In this document: piece after piece, positions 5,922-17,102 of the stretch
Layout: each line of letters starts with the position of its first letter
Position numbering within the stretch: position 1 is the first letter of the stretch
From: a virus
IMG/VR virus record: IMGVR_UViG_3300031162_000355
Location: 1-20,408 of that record
Length of the DNA: 20,408 nucleotides
Strand: one strand, 5' to 3'
Notes under the pieces: model-generated
Seen by the model: only the letters and a program-made list of their open reading frames with translations
Databases searched by the model: none
Told to the model about the DNA's origin: nothing
Made by a program: the position numbers and the translations under genes

Positions 5922-6464
5922 ATGAAATGTATATATACTGAATCATTGATAATTGATTCTGGAGCTCAAATAATCCTTTGTCCTACCAATGCAGAAAATG
6001 TAATGGATAAAGAACAAGAATTATTTCAACATTGTTTTCCAGAAGCAAAGAAATCATTAGAGAATATGTTTACTGCATCTGATCACGGTGAAGAACAACC
6101 AAGATTAGGTGATGTTATATGGTTTCAACCAAGTCAAAATAGATACATTGGATTTTGTATTGTAAGAAATACACCAATGGATGAGATAAGTCTACCAGCA
6201 TTAGAAGTTTGTTGTAAATCAGTGAACAAAAAGTGCATAGAATTTCAACAGGTATGTGTTGGAATGGGGCAATTTGATTGTAATGGTGATGATTGGTCTA
6301 AAATCGTTGACACCATTGAAGATACACTAGAACCACAATTAGTTGTGTGCCTACCTAAAAACGAAATACTTATGGATTTCGTTAATAAACTACCAAGACA
6401 AGACGAATTAAAAACAATGTCATTTGATATAAATAGTATATTAACAGAGAATAGTATACACTAA
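5922..6464 (+). CDS. Degenerate macro-domain-like protein, 180 aa
   Basis: The start is taken at ATG 5922, two bases after the upstream stop. The in-frame ATG at 5883 would overlap the previous gene by 37 bases. The motif order follows the macro (ADP-ribose-binding) fold of the DarG/ALC1-like type: an N-terminal strand, then AQIILCPTNAENVMD (residues 15-29) where macro domains have an N-rich ADP-ribose loop, then FPEAKKS, then LGDVIWFQ near 65, then a helix with ALEVCC, then VGMGQFDCNGDDWSKIVDTI near 113-132, which parallels the GxGxGGxDW..V...I motif. The Gly-rich loop normally found after the Asn is replaced by VMDKEQ, so ligand binding may be lost or altered. Proposed roles (ADP-ribose or nucleotide-derivative sensing, anti-defence) are inference. 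A virion location is possible from context only. Confidence 0.6.
   Translation: MKCIYTESLIIDSGAQIILCPTNAENVMDKEQELFQHCFPEAKKSLENMFTASDHGEEQPRLGDVIWFQPSQNRYIGFCIVRNTPMDEISLPALEVCCKSVNKKCIEFQQVCVGMGQFDCNGDDWSKIVDTIEDTLEPQLVVCLPKNEILMDFVNKLPRQDELKTMSFDINSILTENSIH
6428..6435 (+). promoter_or_regulatory. T4-type late promoter (TATAAATA) inside the 3' end of the macro-like gene
   Basis: Perfect TATAAATA octamer, 44 bases before the ATG of the following gene and embedded in the last codons of the upstream gene. Spacing to the downstream ATG matches the other late promoters in this window. Confidence 0.75.
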
Positions 6465-7462: not shown

Positions 7463-7948
7463 ATGAAATCTTTCAAACAATTTTCAATGGAGAGAGCAGA
7501 GTTCTTTGAGGATGCACAACGTGTACCCGCAAAGGAACTAAAAGATGCCCCTGTTCCTAAAGATGAAATCGAGGACATGGAGCCTCGTTCAAAAGGTGAG
7601 AAAGATTTCAAAAAACTTCACACCGATAAAAAAGAAGTGATCCCACATCCAGTAGGAACAAAAGGTCAATTTGATTCGAACAATAAACAAGATGATCATC
7701 TTGCAGATGGTGCGAAGGACGAAGATGGTGAGAAAACTCCTATCAAGTCTGGAACATCAGATGTCAAAGGTGATGAAAAAGATGGTTCAAAGAAACGTGA
7801 CACATCTAAGGCAGCTGGAAAAGACAATGGTGAAAAGAAACCTGTAATGCAAGGTTCATCAGACGTACCTAAAGACCCTGAGATACAGGAAGAAATTGAT
7901 CCTGTCATGGCACATTACCTTAGTGCTATTACTAGAGACATTTCGTAA
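7463..7948 (+). CDS. Disordered internal head/core protein with capsid-targeting-like N-terminus, 161 aa
   Basis: The N-terminus MKSFKQFSME resembles the capsid-targeting sequence of T4 internal head proteins (MKTYQEFIAE). The middle is highly charged and low complexity and contains a repeat of about 18 residues: GEKTPIKSGTSDV (from residue 89) and GEKKPVMQGSSDV (from residue 123), a 34-residue period. The C-terminus EEIDPVMAHYLSAITR (143-158) matches the end of the gp22 scaffold in this window (EEVNPTMNRYVDAISK). Carrying both a targeting-like start and a scaffold-like end, it is likely part of the prohead core, processed by gp21. It overlaps the next gene by one base (TAATG). Its position corresponds to T4 gene 68, but sequence homology to gp68 is not claimed. 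Confidence 0.65.
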   Translation: MKSFKQFSMERAEFFEDAQRVPAKELKDAPVPKDEIEDMEPRSKGEKDFKKLHTDKKEVIPHPVGTKGQFDSNNKQDDHLADGAKDEDGEKTPIKSGTSDVKGDEKDGSKKRDTSKAAGKDNGEKKPVMQGSSDVPKDPEIQEEIDPVMAHYLSAITRDIS

Positions 7949-8316: not shown

Positions 8317-8681
8317 TGCCAATAACAATAAAACAAAAAGGTAGTGGGATTGTCACAATCAATACCTCAAACGCATCAGAAGGACTTCTCTTAAATTTTG
8401 CTGGAGGTGACATTGAAGGTGCTAATACATCTGGTGAATCAGTATCAGTAATGTCTGTATCGGAAGTTATGTTCACTGGTCACTGGCATATATTAAGAGG
8501 TGCTAACGTTATATTTGATACTGGTAATGCCAATTCGGTTGGACATTTTGACTTTCAGGCATCAAATATGAGACTAGAAGCAGACAATGCACAACTAACA
8601 TCTAATGTTACTGCATCATTTCAAGGTGGTGGTGATGGAACGATGATACTTAAAATGCACAAACAATCAGGACAACTATAA
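8316..8681 (+). CDS. Small beta-rich protein, second of a tandem paralogous pair, 121 aa
   Basis: It aligns end to end with the preceding protein by eye: IKQKGSGIVTIN, EGANTSGESV, TGHWHILRG, FDTGNANS, FDFQASNMRLE and a LKMHKQS ending. I estimate roughly a third of positions are identical, consistent with an old tandem duplication. The GHWHI[FL]RG core is the best conserved stretch, and its two His and Trp could bind a ligand or metal or simply be structural. It is joined to both neighbours by TAATG one-base overlaps. It is most likely a late virion protein; the role is unknown. The two copies may form a hetero-oligomer. Confidence 0.75.
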   Translation: MPITIKQKGSGIVTINTSNASEGLLLNFAGGDIEGANTSGESVSVMSVSEVMFTGHWHILRGANVIFDTGNANSVGHFDFQASNMRLEADNAQLTSNVTASFQGGGDGTMILKMHKQSGQL

Positions 8682-9331
8682 TGTTACTTATCACAGAATC
8701 AGCAGAATCAGTTACATATCTAGCAGAAGAAAAAGACGGTAAAAAGAATTACTTTGTTGAAGGTATCTTCATGCAGGGTGACATCAAACACCGCAACGGT
8801 CGTCTATACCCTGTTTCTGTGCTTGAAAATGAAGTTAATAAATATATAAAAGAAAAGGTAGATACTAAAAGAGCATACGGAGAACTTGGACACCCACAGG
8901 GGCCAACCATCAATCTTCCTCTTGCATCACACGTATTCACAGAGATCAAAAAAGACGGTGCGAACTTTGTAGGTCGTGCAAAAATTTTAGATACTAATAA
9001 TGGTAAGGTTGTGAAAAATCTTATTGATGAAGGACTTTCGTTTGGTATGAGTTCACGTGGTATGGGTTCACTTGAATTAAAGAACGGAGTTAATGAAGTA
9101 CAGAGTGATTTTAAACTAGCAACTGCTGGTGATATTGTCTCTGACCCATCAGCACCAGACGCATTTGTTAATGGCATAATGGAAGGTGTGGAGTTCTGGT
9201 TTAATGAGGAAAATGGATTATGGGAACGTGCAGCAATGGAAGCAAGACAAGAAGTTCGATCACTCAAATCCGGACAAATTACAGAAGAAAATCTATTAAA
9301 CATATTCAATAGATTTTGTTCAAAACTTTAA
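8681..9331 (+). CDS. 21: Prohead maturation protease gp21
   Basis: T4 gp21-type serine protease (peptidase family S77, same fold as the HK97 and herpesvirus assembly proteases). It sits inside the prohead, cleaves scaffold and capsid proteins after Glu in an [LI]xE context, and destroys the core before DNA packaging. Visible motifs are NGRLYP (39-44), GELGHPQG with the catalytic His at 71, and FGMSSRG (121-127) with the nucleophile at Ser124 or Ser125. An Asp around 151-155 (GDIVSDPSAP) fits the conserved region after it. The length of 216 aa is close to T4 gp21 (212 aa). The start is ATG overlapping the previous stop by one base. It lies immediately before gp22 and gp23, as in T4. Confidence 0.92.
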   Translation: MLLITESAESVTYLAEEKDGKKNYFVEGIFMQGDIKHRNGRLYPVSVLENEVNKYIKEKVDTKRAYGELGHPQGPTINLPLASHVFTEIKKDGANFVGRAKILDTNNGKVVKNLIDEGLSFGMSSRGMGSLELKNGVNEVQSDFKLATAGDIVSDPSAPDAFVNGIMEGVEFWFNEENGLWERAAMEARQEVRSLKSGQITEENLLNIFNRFCSKL

Positions 9332-9342: not shown

Positions 9343-9378
9343 TACGAAAGAAACAAAATTCTCTAGGAGTTAATGCAA

Positions 9379-10644
9379 ATGTTAATAAATGAAACCTACT
9401 ATGTCGTTGAAGAAGATGGAACAATTATGTTCATCGAGGCAGAAGAAGTAAAGGACGCAAAAGAAAAAGGTCTTAAAGTGATGAAGGCTAAGTCTGACGA
9501 AGATGATGAAGAAGAAGAAGATGATGAAGAAATGTCAGCAGAAGAAGTTGAAGAACTTGAAGCAGAACTTATTGAGTTCAAAGCAGACGGTGAAAACTCA
9601 TCTACAGCAGACCCAGTTGGTGGTCAAACTCCAACTCGTAGAGCAGATAAAAGAAACCCAGAAGCAAAACCTATGAAGCCAGGTTCAGGTATTGATTATG
9701 CTAACGCATCAAAATCATCAATGCTATCAGGTATGGTTAAATCACTTAAATCTATGGACAATAATGAATTATCATCATTGTACAAAAAGATTGTATCTAT
9801 GTCTAAACAGGGTCTTGAAATTCAAAAAGAAGAAACTGATGAAGATGAAGAAGATGTGAAAGCAAAGGATATGAAGAAGAAAGTATCTAAAGATGATGTT
9901 GATGTCGAAGAAGATATTAAAGCAATCTTTAAAGGTTCTGATCTCTCTGAAGAATTCCAATCAAAGGCAACTGAGATTTTCGAAGCAGCAGTCGTTTCTA
10001 AAGTAAATGACATTCTTGAGTCAGTATATATTGATCAAGAAGCACAGTTCGAAATCGCAAAAGTACAAATGGAAGAAACTCTTGACGAGCAATTGAATGA
10101 GTATCTTGAATACGTTGTAACTAACTGGATGGGAGAAAACACCCTTGCAGTAGAAAAAGGTATTCGTGCTGAGATTGCAGAAAATGTTCTTGAAGGTCTT
10201 AAATCTTTATTTGATGAAAACTACATCGAAGTTCCAGAAGATAAGATTGACATCATTGAAGAACTTGTTGCTAAGAACGAAGAACTTGAAGAAGAATTAA
10301 ATCAAGCAACCGCTGCAGCAGCAGGGCACTTTAACAAAGTAAAAGAATTTGAAACCGAGATCGCATTCGTAGAAGCAGCAGATGGTCTATCTGATACTGA
10401 GGAAGCAAAATTGAAGTCACTTGCAGAAAGCATTGATTTTGATAGTGTTGAACAGTACAAAGAGAAACTTTCAAGTCTGAGAGAATCATATTTCGGTGAA
10501 GATGATAATGGAGTGGAGTTAGAAATTCTTGATGAGTCTGATTCAGGTGTCGCACTTGATGAAGAATCAGCAGTAATCATAGAAGAAGAAGTGAACCCAA
10601 CAATGAATCGTTATGTCGATGCCATTTCGAAAACACTTGGATAA
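9379..10644 (+). CDS. 22: Prohead core scaffolding protein gp22
   Basis: Main scaffold of the T4-type prohead core, around which gp23 polymerises; it is later degraded by gp21. The protein (421 aa from this start) is strongly acidic, with an almost pure Asp/Glu run near residues 39-54, long predicted coiled-coil helices (for example IDIIEELVAKNEELEEELN), and FEAAVVSKVNDIL in the middle. Its C-terminus NPTMNRYVDAIS is of the type thought to contact the shell. Two start codons are possible: ATG 9373 lies only 3 bases after AGGAG (9365-9369), whereas ATG 9379 lies 9 bases after it and is preferred. It is longer than T4 gp22 (269 aa), as often in marine relatives. The same C-terminal motif occurs in the 161-aa protein at 7463-7948. 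Confidence 0.88.
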   Translation: MLINETYYVVEEDGTIMFIEAEEVKDAKEKGLKVMKAKSDEDDEEEEDDEEMSAEEVEELEAELIEFKADGENSSTADPVGGQTPTRRADKRNPEAKPMKPGSGIDYANASKSSMLSGMVKSLKSMDNNELSSLYKKIVSMSKQGLEIQKEETDEDEEDVKAKDMKKKVSKDDVDVEEDIKAIFKGSDLSEEFQSKATEIFEAAVVSKVNDILESVYIDQEAQFEIAKVQMEETLDEQLNEYLEYVVTNWMGENTLAVEKGIRAEIAENVLEGLKSLFDENYIEVPEDKIDIIEELVAKNEELEEELNQATAAAAGHFNKVKEFETEIAFVEAADGLSDTEEAKLKSLAESIDFDSVEQYKEKLSSLRESYFGEDDNGVELEILDESDSGVALDEESAVIIEEEVNPTMNRYVDAISKTLG

Positions 10645-10727: not shown

Positions 10728-12137
10728 ATGATCCTTTCAGAAACAACATTAAAGAAGTGGCAACCAGTTCTTGATCACAGGGAACTTCCTGAGATCAAAG
10801 AATCAGCAAAACGAAAAGTTGTTGCAACACTTTTAGAAAACACAGAAGAAGCTGCTCGTAACGGCAATCTTGGTGGTTACCGTATGCCTTCACTTCTTGG
10901 TGAAATGTCACACGCAGAGTTAGCAGAAGCAGCACCAACAAACGCAATGGGTGCATCTTCTTCTACAGCAGGTGATGGTGCTATCGACATTTTCGACCCA
11001 GTACTTATTTCACTTGTTAGACGTTCAATGCCTAACCTTATTGCATACGATGTATGTGGTGTACAACCAATGACAGGCCCAACAGGTCTTATCTTTGCAT
11101 TACGCCCACGTTACAACAGTCAAACAGGTAAGGAAGCGTTCTTCAATGAAGCAAACGTAACTCACTCAGCAATTGGTTCAACAACTGCTAACACAGCAAA
11201 CTTCCATGGTGTTGTTAATGGTGCTGCTGGTACAACAGTTGGTACAGACCAATTTGACCCTACTGCTCGTGCATCTGGTACTGGTTATACAGTTCACCAA
11301 GGTATGTCTACAGCAGTTGCAGAAGCACTTGGTGATTCATCAGGTAATGCTTTCGCAGAAATGGGTTTCAGTGTTGAAAAAGTATCTGTAACAGCAGTTT
11401 CACGTGCTCTTAAAGCAGAGTACACAATGGAACTTGCACAAGACCTTAAAGCAATTCACGGTCTTTCAGCAGAAACAGAACTTGCTAACATTTTGTCAGC
11501 AGAAGTTCTTGCAGAAATCAACAGAGAAATTGTTCGTACAATTAACTATACCGCAACAGTTGGTGCACAAGATAACGTTGAAGCCGCTGGTACGTTTAAC
11601 CTTGACACAGACGCAAACGGTCGTTGGTCAGTAGAACGTTTCAAAGGTCTTATCTTCCAACTTGAAAGAGAGTCAAATGCGATTGCGAAATCAACACGTA
11701 GAGGTAAGGGTAACGTTATGATTTGTGGTTCTGATGTAGCGTCAGCACTTCAAATGGCAGGTGTATTAGATTATACTCCAGCACTTAACAACAGCTTACA
11801 AGTTGATGACACTGGTAACACTTTTGCAGGTGTGATGAATGGTCGTATCAAAGTATACATAGACCCATACTTCTCATCTTCAACAGGTTTGCAATATGCA
11901 ACTATGGGTTATAAAGGTAATGCCTCATCTTTTGATGCTGGTCTTTTCTACTGCCCTTACGTTCCATTACAAATGGTACGTGCGGTTGGTGAAGATACTT
12001 TCCAACCAAAGATTGGTTTCAAGACTCGTTACGGTGTAGTGGCAAACCCATTCGCAACCGCAGCAGCAGATGGAACTATCTCATATGCAAACGCAAACAT
12101 ATATTATCGCCTTATAGCTATCTCGAATTTAATGTAA
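10728..12137 (+). CDS. 23: Major capsid protein gp23
   Basis: The 469-aa protein matches T4-type gp23 (HK97 fold; T4 gp23 is 521 aa). Diagnostic stretches are IFDPVLISLVRRSMPNLIAYD (residues about 87-107), CGVQPMTGPTGLIFALRPRY near 109-128, and a C-terminal region with KIGFKTRYGVVANPF. The precursor propeptide is visible: HAELAE/AAPTN places the gp21 cleavage after Glu67 in an LAE context, equivalent to the cleavage after Glu65 in T4. AGGAG lies ten bases before the ATG. It has its own late promoter upstream and a strong terminator downstream, fitting the most highly expressed virion gene. No adjacent gp24 vertex paralogue is seen. Confidence 0.96.
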   Translation: MILSETTLKKWQPVLDHRELPEIKESAKRKVVATLLENTEEAARNGNLGGYRMPSLLGEMSHAELAEAAPTNAMGASSSTAGDGAIDIFDPVLISLVRRSMPNLIAYDVCGVQPMTGPTGLIFALRPRYNSQTGKEAFFNEANVTHSAIGSTTANTANFHGVVNGAAGTTVGTDQFDPTARASGTGYTVHQGMSTAVAEALGDSSGNAFAEMGFSVEKVSVTAVSRALKAEYTMELAQDLKAIHGLSAETELANILSAEVLAEINREIVRTINYTATVGAQDNVEAAGTFNLDTDANGRWSVERFKGLIFQLERESNAIAKSTRRGKGNVMICGSDVASALQMAGVLDYTPALNNSLQVDDTGNTFAGVMNGRIKVYIDPYFSSSTGLQYATMGYKGNASSFDAGLFYCPYVPLQMVRAVGEDTFQPKIGFKTRYGVVANPFATAAADGTISYANANIYYRLIAISNLM

Positions 12138-12162: not shown

Positions 12163-12190
12163 AAAACCCCTCCTCGTGAGGGGTTTTTTT
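12163..12190 (+). terminator. Strong intrinsic terminator after gp23
   Basis: AAAACCCCTC (12163-12172), loop CTCGT, then GAGGGG (12178-12183) followed by seven T. The GC stem is 6 bp and extends through A-T pairs. This is a textbook rho-independent terminator, 25 bases after the gp23 stop. Confidence 0.92.
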
Positions 12191-12195
12191 ATGCT

Positions 12196-12203
12196 TATAA
12201 ATA
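12196..12203 (+). promoter_or_regulatory. T4-type late promoter (TATAAATA) abutting a start codon
   Basis: Perfect octamer six bases after the gp23 terminator. In T4 the octamer spans about -13 to -6, which puts the start point at about 12209, the A of the next ATG. The transcript would therefore be leaderless. Confidence 0.82.
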
Positions 12204-12208
12204 GTAGT

Positions 12209-12225
12209 ATGAAAACGTTTAAAGA
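12209..12225 (+). repeat. 17-bp direct repeat encoding the targeting N-terminus, copy 1
   Basis: The first 17 bases of this gene (ATGAAAACGTTTAAAGA) are identical to the first 17 of the next gene at 12481-12497. The identity stops soon after the targeting segment. Confidence 0.85.
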
Positions 12226-12484
12226 GTTTATGTCGGAGAGCAATGGTTTTACTGCTATAAAGAAAGGTCAAAATAAAGCAGGGAAATGGTTTGCTCTTGC
12301 CAAAGAAGGTAATATATATACGGTGTATGCCCGTGGTGGTAATTATGATGGTAGTGTTCCCGGCGGCATTAGATATGCTTGGAGAACTGCGAATTATGAT
12401 CGCAAGAATCCATCTGGACATTATGATAACCTAGAGGATGCAACTAAGTTTTACGAAAAGGTACTTAAAGGTAAAAGAAAATGA
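12209..12484 (+). CDS. Small protein with capsid-targeting-like N-terminus, 91 aa
   Basis: The start is taken at ATG 12209 because the product then begins MKTFKEFMSE, matching the T4 internal-protein targeting sequence (MKTYQEFIAE). Cleavage by gp21 after Glu10 is plausible. In-frame ATGs at 12176 (inside the terminator) and 12191 would add 11 or 6 residues. The mature part is basic, with Trp, Tyr and Gly-rich strands (WFALAKEGNIYTVYARGG) and a C-terminal helix (LEDATKFYEKVLKG). No catalytic motif is recognised. It is the first gene of a three-gene run joined by ATGA and TAATG overlaps. It is likely packaged in the head and perhaps injected; the target is unknown. Confidence 0.72.
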   Translation: MKTFKEFMSESNGFTAIKKGQNKAGKWFALAKEGNIYTVYARGGNYDGSVPGGIRYAWRTANYDRKNPSGHYDNLEDATKFYEKVLKGKRK

Positions 12485-12497
12485 AAACGTTTAAAGA
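12481..12497 (+). repeat. 17-bp direct repeat encoding the targeting N-terminus, copy 2
   Basis: Identical to 12209-12225. Because both copies begin at the ATG, the repeat may be a duplicated targeting cassette or conserved by coding constraint. Confidence 0.85.
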
Positions 12498-13194
12498 ATA
12501 TATAACAGAAGCCGGTGGTGAAGGTGCAGGTAAAATGGAACTTGTTTCTACTCCATACCCAAAGGCAGTTAAACACGCAGAAAAACTTTTCACGGATAGT
12601 GGTAAATCATTCGAAAAAGAAATCCCGAATTTTGATAAGAACTATAAGATTGCACAGAAGCAAGCAAACCTTGGTTACACACAAAGAAAAGATATGCCTG
12701 TCATTGACACATCAGATGTCAAGAAGTTACAAGCAAAACTTAAGTCAGGTTTTATTGATGTTAATGCACCCCACGCACCAGTAACCAGTAATGCAAATCC
12801 TTTTCCAGAAGGACTATCAGGTGAAGATGCTTTAAAGTTCTTAAAGGCAGGGTTAGATGATGGTAGTAAAACAGATGATAAGGTTAAGGTGTTATTAAAG
12901 AAAGTACAGGTATCAAAATTAAAACCAATACAGAAACAAATATATTTTGACAAGTCTATTGGTAGTACAGCAGAGTTTGGTGCAGATGTTACTAAAGGCT
13001 TCTTGGAAAGTAAATCTATTTTTATTGCATCATCTGATTTATATATCATAGATGGACATCATAGATACCTTTCTGGTATGTTGGTTGATCCGAAAATGAA
13101 AGTTAAGGTACTTGTTATTGATTTACCAATCAAAGATTTATTGCCAATGACTTTGGCATATGGTGATGCTATAGGTAATAAAAGAAACGCATAA
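12481..13194 (+). CDS. Capsid-targeted ParB/sulfiredoxin-like protein, 237 aa
   Basis: The N-terminus MKTFKEYITE/A fits both the T4 capsid-targeting sequence and the gp21 cleavage rule (I-x-E). The C-terminal half resembles the ParB/sulfiredoxin superfamily: VQVSKLKPIQKQI (143-154), a strand FIASSDLYIIDGHHRYLSGM with the hallmark DGHHRY at 191-196, then VKVLVIDLPIKDLL (208-221). Members bind or hydrolyse nucleotides, or act as nucleases. Which activity applies here is unknown. Residues 11-140 are a Lys-rich region with no recognised domain. The start overlaps the upstream stop (ATGA) and the end overlaps the next start (TAATG). The combination suggests an enzyme carried in the head and delivered with phage DNA, which is inference. 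Confidence 0.72.
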   Translation: MKTFKEYITEAGGEGAGKMELVSTPYPKAVKHAEKLFTDSGKSFEKEIPNFDKNYKIAQKQANLGYTQRKDMPVIDTSDVKKLQAKLKSGFIDVNAPHAPVTSNANPFPEGLSGEDALKFLKAGLDDGSKTDDKVKVLLKKVQVSKLKPIQKQIYFDKSIGSTAEFGADVTKGFLESKSIFIASSDLYIIDGHHRYLSGMLVDPKMKVKVLVIDLPIKDLLPMTLAYGDAIGNKRNA

Positions 13195-13661
13195 TGAAGT
13201 CGTATAAAGAATTTCACGAAGCAGCAACAAATAATAAACTTACTTGGAAGAAAGTACAAGATGGGTTTGCTACACGTATGGGTGCTAAAAGATATAAATA
13301 TGTTACCACAGATGGTAGATATGAAATAACATCTGGTGGGAATACATTTGATCGTAAACTAAGTGGGAAACAAAAAGATACTCTTTGGTGGCATATATCT
13401 GATCTATCTAAACCAGAACATACGACAAAAAGATATTGGGAACACCCGCATAAAACAATAGAAAAGGCAAAGGCAGCAGTACAGAAATCACATACAAACG
13501 AACTTGATCCGTTGGGTGAATTAGTTAAAGAGTATAGTGCTAAACCTAAAGCAAAACTACAAGATATGTATGATAGGTATCAAGAACTTGATTTGAAGAA
13601 ATTATCAGACTTTCAATTGTTACATTATAAAGCAATCAAGAAAGTATTAAAGATTAAATAA
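13194..13661 (+). CDS. Protein with capsid-targeting-like N-terminus, 155 aa
   Basis: It begins MKSYKEFHEA, a third version of the capsid-targeting pattern; a gp21 cut after Glu9 (FHE/A) would be less canonical than in the preceding gene. The body is basic, with WKKVQDGFATRMGAKRYKYV, TDGRYEITSGG, LWWHIS and a region YWEHPHKTIEKAKAAV. Strands followed by an H....[ED]KA helix loosely recall the layout of the 91-aa protein, so both may share a small domain. The C-terminal 50 residues are Leu/Lys-rich helices. I recognise no family. It is the last gene of the late operon starting at 12196. Its ATG shares a base with the upstream TAA. Likely an internal head protein. Confidence 0.68.
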   Translation: MKSYKEFHEAATNNKLTWKKVQDGFATRMGAKRYKYVTTDGRYEITSGGNTFDRKLSGKQKDTLWWHISDLSKPEHTTKRYWEHPHKTIEKAKAAVQKSHTNELDPLGELVKEYSAKPKAKLQDMYDRYQELDLKKLSDFQLLHYKAIKKVLKIK

Positions 13662-13714: not shown

Positions 13715-14227
13715 GTGTCAACCCCTAATAATCAGAACTATTTGTCACCAGTAGGGTTTCGTTTAATCCTAAAAAGACTACCTAATGTAGAGTTCTTCTG
13801 CAAACGTGTATCTTTACCGTCAATGACTTTAGGTGAGGTTGCAATACCTACCCCATTGGGTGCTTCTAACTATGAGCCGGGTTCTAAGTTATCCTATGAT
13901 CCAATAAGTGTGACCTTCCATGTCGATGAGGACATGAGGAACTATGAAGAAATCAACGAATGGATGGTTGGACTATCAGCACCAATCGACCATCAACAAT
14001 ATGTTTCATATGTACAACAATCAGCAAAATCCAGACCACGTGAAAATGTGTTCTCCGATGCAGCACTACAAATACTGACATCCCACAAGAATGTTAGCAA
14101 AACTTATAAGTTTTCAGACTGTTTCCCTACAAACCTTACCCCACTTGACTTTGATGTGGGTGATACAGAGATACAATATCTTGAAGCTACCTTGACTTTA
14201 AGGTATGTTTCGTATAAAATAGTATAG
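13715..14227 (+). CDS. gp19-like tail-tube-type structural protein, 170 aa (GTG start)
   Basis: The start is GTG 13715 (the product begins with STPNNQNYLSPVGF); GGA at 13701-13703 is a weak ribosome site. The pattern matches the T4 gp19 tail-tube family layout: FRLILKRLPNVEFFCKRVSLP (residues 15-35) is like the gp19 strand pair with Cys and LP; then SYDPISVTFHVDED, a helix NYEEINEWMVGL, and a C-terminal LQILTSHKNVSKTYKFSDCFPTNL followed by IQYLEATLTLRYVSY. T4 gp19 has a matching ...GLWPTNVGEL and EIQTFEVTLALDY. It could be the tube protein, a tube terminator/initiator, or a baseplate hub paralogue. It sits alone between the internal-protein operon and uvsY, away from any visible sheath gene. 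Confidence 0.7.
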   Translation: MSTPNNQNYLSPVGFRLILKRLPNVEFFCKRVSLPSMTLGEVAIPTPLGASNYEPGSKLSYDPISVTFHVDEDMRNYEEINEWMVGLSAPIDHQQYVSYVQQSAKSRPRENVFSDAALQILTSHKNVSKTYKFSDCFPTNLTPLDFDVGDTEIQYLEATLTLRYVSYKIV

Positions 14228-16532: not shown

Positions 16533-17102
16533 ATGGCTAACAAAAAGAAAAATCCTCATTATGTAAATAACAAAGATTTATTTGCAGCAATGGTTGAGTA
16601 TGGCATACAGGTCAAAGAAGCAGAAGAAGCAAACGAACCAAGACCAAGACCATCAGAGTACATAGGTGAGTCGATTATGAAAATCGCAACACACCTTTCA
16701 TTTAAACCAAACTTTGTAAACTATCCTTTCGTACAGGAAATGATAGGTGATGGTATAGAGAATTGTTTACAGTATATTGATAATTTTAATCCGGAGAAAT
16801 CAAAGAATCCCTTTGCATACTTCACACAGATAATTTACTTTGCATTTCTTAGACGCATTGAGAAAGAGAAGAAACAATTATATACCAAGTATAAAGCAAC
16901 AGAGCGTGCTAATGTTCTTGGTGTGACAAGTGATACACAAGAACATGATAGTCAAACATCATATAACGATGATGTTGTATCTGGTGAATGGAGTCAACAA
17001 CATATTGAGAAATTCATTACCGACTTTGAAGAAAGTAAACGAACCAAGAAGTTGAAAAAAGATGAAAAAGAACGACAAGCAAATCTCGATAGTCGAAGTT
17101 AG
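16533..17102 (+). CDS. 55: Late-transcription sigma factor gp55
   Basis: gp55 is the highly diverged sigma factor that directs host RNA polymerase to TATAAATA late promoters, with help from the sliding clamp gp45 and the co-activator gp33 in T4. The 189-aa length matches T4 (185 aa). Recognisable signature: YIGESIMKIATHLSFKPNF (43-61), then MIGDGIENCLQYIDNFNPEKS (about 70-90) and FAYFTQIIYFAFLRRIEKE (about 94-112), equivalent to sigma region 2. The C-terminus is Lys-rich and ends NLDSRS; the hydrophobic-acidic clamp-binding tail known in T4 is not obvious, unless FITDFEE (about 162-168) plays that role. GGAG precedes the ATG. Six perfect cognate promoters occur in this window. Confidence 0.93.
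   Translation: MANKKKNPHYVNNKDLFAAMVEYGIQVKEAEEANEPRPRPSEYIGESIMKIATHLSFKPNFVNYPFVQEMIGDGIENCLQYIDNFNPEKSKNPFAYFTQIIYFAFLRRIEKEKKQLYTKYKATERANVLGVTSDTQEHDSQTSYNDDVVSGEWSQQHIEKFITDFEESKRTKKLKKDEKERQANLDSRS

Follow-up and report, generated by a model that had tools for sequence, protein, structure and literature searches.

Organization of the head-gene cluster and the cargo operon

The 20.4-kb virus record, analysed over its whole length of 20,408 nucleotides and referred to here as the window, holds a T4-type head cluster, recognized by profile matches, upstream of a three-gene cargo operon. The cluster is located on the plus strand and encodes the gp21 prohead protease (Peptidase_S77; 8681-9331), which is the predicted remover of the leader described below, the gp22 prohead scaffold (9373-10644), and the gp23 major capsid protein (10728-12137). 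Maturation of gp23 is predicted after residue 67 (LAE67|A), compared with residue 65 in T4, and the closest gp23 proteins of isolates (about 63%) belong to Stenotrophomonas phage DLP6 and to Pelagibacter phage Mosig. Gp23 is followed by an intrinsic terminator (12163-12187, plus strand), a trio of short genes, a tail tube gene at 13715-14227, and then uvsY, uvsW, gp47, and gp46, of which uvsW, gp46, and gp47 were named putatively from position and sequence. In the region upstream of the head genes, an open reading frame (ORF) at 5928-6464 appeared macrodomain-like by eye (LCPTNAENVM...), making it a candidate ADP-ribose-binding protein; it gave no Pfam or PHROG matches.

The gene under study, coding for a ParB/sulfiredoxin (Srx)-like protein with a capsid-targeting sequence (CTS) at its start (12481-13194, plus strand), lies second among these short, overlapping genes, the three products of which are all CTS-tagged and basic (pI 9.2 – 9.8). 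The upstream gene (12209-12484, plus strand) encodes a tagged protein of 91 amino acids (pI 9.8; MKTFKEFMSE|S) and overlaps the ParB gene by ATGA, the first 17 nucleotides of the two genes being identical. The downstream gene (13194-13661, plus strand) encodes a tagged protein of 155 amino acids (pI 9.7; MKSYKEFHE|A) and has a one-base overlap with the ParB stop codon (TAATG). A CTS-like start (MKSFKQFSMERAE) also opens a fourth ORF, located amid late genes (7463-7948, plus strand), which encodes an acidic, low-complexity product of 161 amino acids, in which a clear L/I-x-E[AGS] site was not found.

The octamer TATAAATA, which we take to be the core of the T4 late promoter, occurs at seven sites in the window (2550, 6428, 7012, 9335, 10662, 12196, and 13293), versus 2.1 expected, and late genes are usually located directly 3' of these sites, gp22, gp23, and the cargo operon included. 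The T4-late-promoter-like copy at 12196-12203 (plus strand) lies downstream of the gp23 terminator, and only five bases separate its end from the start codon (ATG) that opens the cargo operon at 12209. With the spacing of T4 late promoters, the cargo transcript would thus begin at the ATG as a leaderless mRNA, unless the gp23 terminator is read through. The ORF at 16533-17102 showed a weak match to sigma-70 region 2 and may encode a gp55-like late sigma factor.

The ParB gene product and its capsid-targeting leader

Translation, relatives, and a structure model together delimit a protein of 237 amino acids, with a predicted mature form of 227 amino acids (24.8 kDa, pI 9.3). The translation carries MKTFKEYITEAGGEGAGK at its N-terminus, LKPIQ at residues 147-151, and YIIDGHHRYLSGM at residues 188-200; the original prediction had located the latter motif correctly and had started LKPIQ one residue too late, at 148. 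Three parts can be distinguished on the plus strand, namely the leader MKTFKEYITE (12481-12510), a helical N-terminal body with the motifs AGG..AGK[LM]E and R69-K-D-M72-P73-V-I, delimited by conservation and the model (12511-12873), and a domain of the ParB/sulfiredoxin fold, with a Box I-like LKPIQ (147-151) and a Box II-like IIDGHHR (189-195), delimited by the model, a fold search, and alignments (12874-13191). Relatives in IMG/VR (29 near full-length and at least 276 by profile) and an invariant DGHHR motif mark 12481-13194 as a real gene.

The start of the protein (MKTFKEYITE|A) closely resembles those of the T4 internal proteins (IP), namely IPIII and IPII (MKTYQEFIAE|A) and IPI (MKTFKEF). 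In T4 IPIII, the first 10 residues are sufficient, targeting depending mainly on residues 4 and 7 and processing on residues 8 and 10, and gp21 cleaves after L/I-x-E (reviewed in PMC9026906). At the positions mapped in IPIII, the leader carries residues of the matching classes (F4, Y7, I8, and E10), and its end presents a predicted gp21 motif (ITE10|A), with the cut expected after E10. Both its length (10-19 residues in the class) and its hydrophobic or aromatic residues at positions 4 and 7 place MKTFKEYITE among the propeptides of the T4-type CTS class. Chance as the origin of the leader could be ruled out, since a degenerate pattern of 20 bases encoding MK[TS][FY]K[EQ][FY] has four matches in the window, all of them at the start of an ORF, versus 0.00 expected from 100 shuffles. 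The capsid-targeting start that had been proposed from the DNA was therefore borne out by the translation, the T4 leaders, the shuffle test, and the leaders of the family presented below. Past the cleavage site, T4 IPII bears some resemblance to the family (ARVGAGKLE versus AGGEGAGKME), but homology is not claimed, as a leader profile missed IPII at E 0.05 among 3,601 N-termini.

Fold and nucleotide pocket

AlphaFold2 modelled the full-length protein with high confidence from 73 sequences (pLDDT 92.1, pTM 0.88), the sole internal stretch below a pLDDT of 50 being residues 8-12, around the predicted cut. Structure prediction had been named in the original prediction as a refuting test, and the ParB/Srx barrel is present in the model. 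Residues ~132-236 were confirmed, in the model, as a ParB/sulfiredoxin fold, since the leading solved matches over this region are all ParB, Noc, PadC, KorB, sulfiredoxin, SerK, or SbnI; the best scores are modest (Z 5.8, Foldseek E 8e-3) and the match list is uniform. In addition, the BFVD matches to the model are phage ParB/Srx proteins. The earlier assignment of a ParB/Srx domain with DGHHRY hence holds through AlphaFold2 and the fold search and not through Pfam. Indeed, Pfam alone could not name the domain, as ParBc_2 (PF08857) scored 12.5 bits (E = 0.16), below the gathering cut-off of 23.6, and was matched weakly by 13 of the 73 members. A sequence search of the PDB with the single protein found nothing but designed toroid proteins, whose match is compositional and was discarded. 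The N-terminal body was modelled with confidence only together with the core (pLDDT >90 in the full-length model, versus pLDDT 72 and pTM 0.42 when modelled alone), indicating that this helical segment probably caps the ParB domain. A fold search with the low-confidence model of the body alone gave no match.

Residues L147, P149, and Q151 (Box I) and D191-G-H-H-R195 (Box II) are invariant, DGHHR being so in all 73 aligned members, and the assignment of both boxes to the nucleotide pocket was made by motif and alignment rather than from a solved complex. Fold and invariant pocket residues together suggest that the protein most likely binds, and perhaps hydrolyses, a nucleoside triphosphate (NTP). 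A fold-wide survey (PNAS 2025) reported NTP binding in diverse members, with a ligand that is not predictable from sequence (PMC12704722). The protein shares its fold and pocket position with SerK, SbnI, ParB, and sulfiredoxin, and SerK also has a DGHHRW string, although the serine kinase activity of SerK was rejected because its catalytic Glu30 aligns with the invariant Gln151 (profile alignment, E30Q chain). Gln151 also corresponds to the position of the ParB glutamine. In sulfiredoxin, the motif G-C-H-R holds the catalytic Cys. This residue is absent from the protein, its position being taken by the invariant His193 of DGHHR, so that sulfiredoxin activity was rejected as well. Both substitutions favour an NTP binder or NTPase of the ParB kind over a serine kinase or a sulfiredoxin. 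The helix-turn-helix (HTH) and C-terminal dimerization domains of chromosome and plasmid ParB are absent, the chain ending after the ParB/Srx core.

Distribution of the family and leader swapping

A first scan of IMG/VR yielded 29 essentially full-length relatives (49-62% identity) and a profile scan at least 276, and all 73 members examined matched the profile of phrog_2859, a family with a function that is not known. The CTS-tagged ParB/Srx family is, on sequence grounds, widespread in uncultured T4-like phages. No counterpart of the full-length family was found among 50,697 isolate phage records, in which partial matches occurred in 10 records only. Likewise, the ParB part had no match in plasmids, and the protein had none among the PADLOC defence families. 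Seven contigs of metagenome-assembled genomes (MAG) in GTDB contained matches and are likely phage-derived.

Within the family, conservation is lowest in the leader (mean identity 26%) and highest in the RKDMPVI region and in the ParB domain (51-52%). The 51 distinct leaders of the deduplicated set show [LIVF]-x-E immediately N-terminal to the conserved AGG..AGK[LM]E body, with L or I at P3 in 46 of 51 and A, G, or S at P1' in 38 of 51. An aromatic residue or Leu was present at both targeting positions in 26 of 34 short leaders, versus none of 153 control windows in mature bodies. Local leader dialects could be recognized (MKTFKEY, MKKSELRKIIKEEIKKL, MKLTESKLRKLIREE, and MRFKKYLxE), which are common to unrelated ORFs within one locus. 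Under a strict threshold, 7 of 44 loci had an unrelated ORF matching the leader of the family member, versus 1.0 expected (0 of 5000 permutations), and under a looser threshold 8 loci did, versus 2.2 expected. As flanks were short and a match over 10 residues was required, this sharing, although significant, was found in only about one-sixth of the loci. These locus-specific leaders on unrelated neighbours indicate that the same ParB body has been re-tagged repeatedly, hundreds of uncultured relatives bearing the same predicted cargo with differing tags. At the loci L017, L008, and L014, long leaders (MKLTESKLRKLIREE.. and MKKSELRKIIKEE..) recur on several unrelated ORFs per contig; they may be the capsid tags of other T4-like lineages.

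Genome context of the relatives

The genes for gp21 (phrog_207) and gp23 (phrog_138) co-occurred in the same 17 of 31 relatives' records and were both encoded in 15 of the 16 records of at least 90 kb (raw counts). In one relative's record of 115 kb, neither was detected with these two profiles, for which T4 served as positive control and P1 and two smaller phages as negative controls. Among the 95 immediate neighbour proteins, DUF6267 was the most frequent family (12 by Pfam, phrog_455 in 21), besides cytidyltransferase phrog_3041 (12), zeta-toxin/AAA kinase (5), ART-PolyVal (2), and LPD11 (1); gp20, gp21, neck, tail-stabilizer, and terminase proteins were found too. Leader-like starts with a cleavage site were present in 81 of 2470 ORFs, the ParB family counted in, versus 9 in shuffled N-termini. 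Several enzyme neighbours are tagged, MKNFKSYITEAA preceding an ADP-ribosyltransferase (ART), MKTFNEFLTE a cytidylyltransferase/kinase, and MLTFQEYVTEA a DUF6267 protein. This layout is that of the T4 Alt/IP arrangement, the enzymes being different.

Individual loci illustrate this diversity. Directly 5' of one ParB relative (L055:5542-5979), a protein tagged with MKNFKSYITEAA showed a weak ART-PolyVal match and is a candidate analogue of T4 Alt. A CTS-tagged fusion of a cytidylyltransferase-like domain and a zeta-toxin/AAA kinase lies directly 3' of the ParB relative at several loci (L027:4449-5735 and similar), and a CTS-tagged DUF6267 protein overlaps the start of the ParB relative at others (L064:4787-6001 and similar). 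In the cultured Aeromonas phage Aswh_1 (L036:4051-4899), a zeta-toxin-like kinase with the start MKRFKDFVLEE is encoded two genes from a short ParB relative and is possible tagged cargo, judging from this start.

Comparison with known proteins

The T4 proteins IPI, IPII, and IPIII, as well as Alt, have the same type of head genes, the same cargo route, and a small basic mature protein, and the 10-residue leaders of IPII and IPIII, with their gp21 site, are near-identical to that of the ParB protein. In contrast, the mature parts of the T4 proteins are unrelated in sequence, none has a ParB/Srx fold, and the T4 IP genes are located away from gp23.

Over the R..MP motif and the ParB domain, the family is homologous to short R..MPQ/DGHHR (or DGSHR) proteins (hhalign E 8e-27). 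These are carried by Aeromonas phage 65 (65p144), Stenotrophomonas phage Marzo (gp058, annotated as 'virion-associated'), and Vibrio, Chryseobacterium, and Tenacibaculum phages, the Tenacibaculum gene lying between the portal and protease genes. A member from the Ackermannviridae matched the family profile (E 4e-10). The Sajous1 member, gp192, occupies a gene neighbourhood shared with the LIMEstone-type 'unknown structural protein' and was detected with 11 spectra in the mass spectrometry of CsCl-purified virions, in a list that also includes likely contaminants (PMC10892097, Table 6). The short proteins of Ackermannviridae, Aeromonas, and Stenotrophomonas phages differ from the family in their shorter N-terminal segment and their locus, and a T4-type CTS leader was absent from the short-clade members inspected, Ackermannviridae included. 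The same ParB subdomain also occurs in giant polyvalent PLxRFG-type or structural proteins (Klebsiella phage ZX1, Pseudomonas phage Epa33), but there it is one domain embedded in a giant protein instead of a tagged stand-alone one, and these phages are without a detectable gp21. Finally, DdrB of phage P1, of the ParB/Srx superfamily, is a phage head protein (PMC5512222, PMC9024508), although of another ParB subfamily and another packaging system. Membership of the DdrB-like ParB family (PF18763) was rejected, as none of the 73 members matched it, versus 2e-39 for P1 DdrB itself, and hhalign to DdrB found nothing.

Virion ParB-like domains are thus already known, from P1 DdrB and Vi01-like phages. 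The earlier statement that no case of this pairing had been described must be qualified, since ParB-like proteins had been reported before, P1 DdrB in the phage head and Sajous1 gp192 in virions. What appears to be new, from the sequences compared, is a T4-type CTS on a stand-alone ParB/Srx internal protein, together with a recurrent tagged cargo operon.

Predicted function

The ParB protein is probably an internal head protein of the T4 type that is ejected, binds a nucleotide, and acts early on targets of the host or its defence, as suggested by its sequence, its model, and the analogy with T4. As in T4, the gene would be expressed late, alongside the head genes, the 10-residue leader would bind the protein into the prohead core, and gp21 would cut after ITE10. 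Sequence and context suggest that the basic mature protein of 227 residues would then be packaged with the DNA and enter the next host with it. There, it would most likely act as a nucleotide-dependent early effector against nucleic-acid-based defence or host-takeover targets, delivered together with further tagged effectors as one set, ADP-ribosyltransferases and cytidylyltransferase/kinases among them. Support for packaging and ejection comes from the genomic context, from the conservation of leader features throughout the family, and from the swapping of leaders. The delivery in the head and the anti-defence or takeover role proposed in the original prediction are reasonable and in part supported. 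The target is the least certain part of this mechanism, for which anti-defence is the strongest analogy. Indeed, T4 IP1-3 all inhibit GmrSD type IV restriction enzymes, the NTPase domain of which is ParB_n (PMC12373910).

An injected nuclease, with a ParB/Srx domain that would nick or degrade the DNA of the host or of rivals, seems unlikely. DNase activity in ParB-like domains has been reviewed, having been proposed for the ParB domains of polyvalent proteins and demonstrated in some related proteins such as Osa (PMC5512222), and the basic mature protein (pI 9.3) would agree with such an enzyme, as would its suitability for head delivery. However, the invariant residues fit the boxes of a nucleotide pocket instead of a metal-nuclease signature, NTP binding is found in diverse members of the fold (PMC12704722), and a DNase packaged in contact with the phage genome would have to be kept in check.

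That the protein is a decoy in type IV restriction, mimicking or poisoning the NTPase module (ParB_n, DUF262) of GmrSD-like enzymes, we regard as quite improbable. The T4 proteins that inhibit GmrSD do carry the same kind of leader, and two-gene systems with a ParB_n-only subunit exist (PMC12373910), but the protein matched neither DUF262 in sequence nor a PADLOC defence family, and the strict conservation of the pocket over divergent phages points to catalysis or switching instead of host-specific mimicry. Little weight can likewise be given to a broader form, in which the ParB-fold protein of T4-like phages would disable ParB_n (DUF262) type IV restriction, or another ParB-fold defence, through mimicry or through mixed assembly, with the capsid tag serving as a lineage-specific 'postcode' swapped onto a common arsenal of nucleotide-using effectors.

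There is very little chance that the protein is a structural or DNA-condensing internal protein that aids head filling without a role in the host. T4 does have small basic packaged proteins, and the mature protein and its tagged neighbours are basic, but the DGHHR/LKPIQ pocket is invariant, the protein is more than a simple basic peptide, and the tagged neighbours in relatives are enzymes. Lastly, an ordinary intracellular enzyme of the ParB, SerK, or sulfiredoxin kind with an incidental leader is highly improbable, for although the fold acts inside cells in many contexts, 65p144 of Aeromonas phage 65 lacks a leader and adjoins a thymidine kinase gene, and the profile matches the DGHHRW of SerK, the family-wide L/I-x-E leader, its swapping, and the head-gene context oppose this, and neither known activity is expected with Gln151 in place of SerK Glu30 and without the sulfiredoxin Cys.

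The T4 internal proteins are the classic injected anti-defence factors, few of which are known outside enterobacterial phages. The probable ejected effector described here belongs to a large, conserved, and recognizable family of candidate injected proteins in uncultured marine-type T4-like phages. Furthermore, the L/I-x-E leaders common to unrelated neighbours provide a practical rule for finding the remaining injected arsenal. The role of virion ParB domains, a question since the polyvalent-protein survey of 2017, is now testable in a compact single-domain protein.
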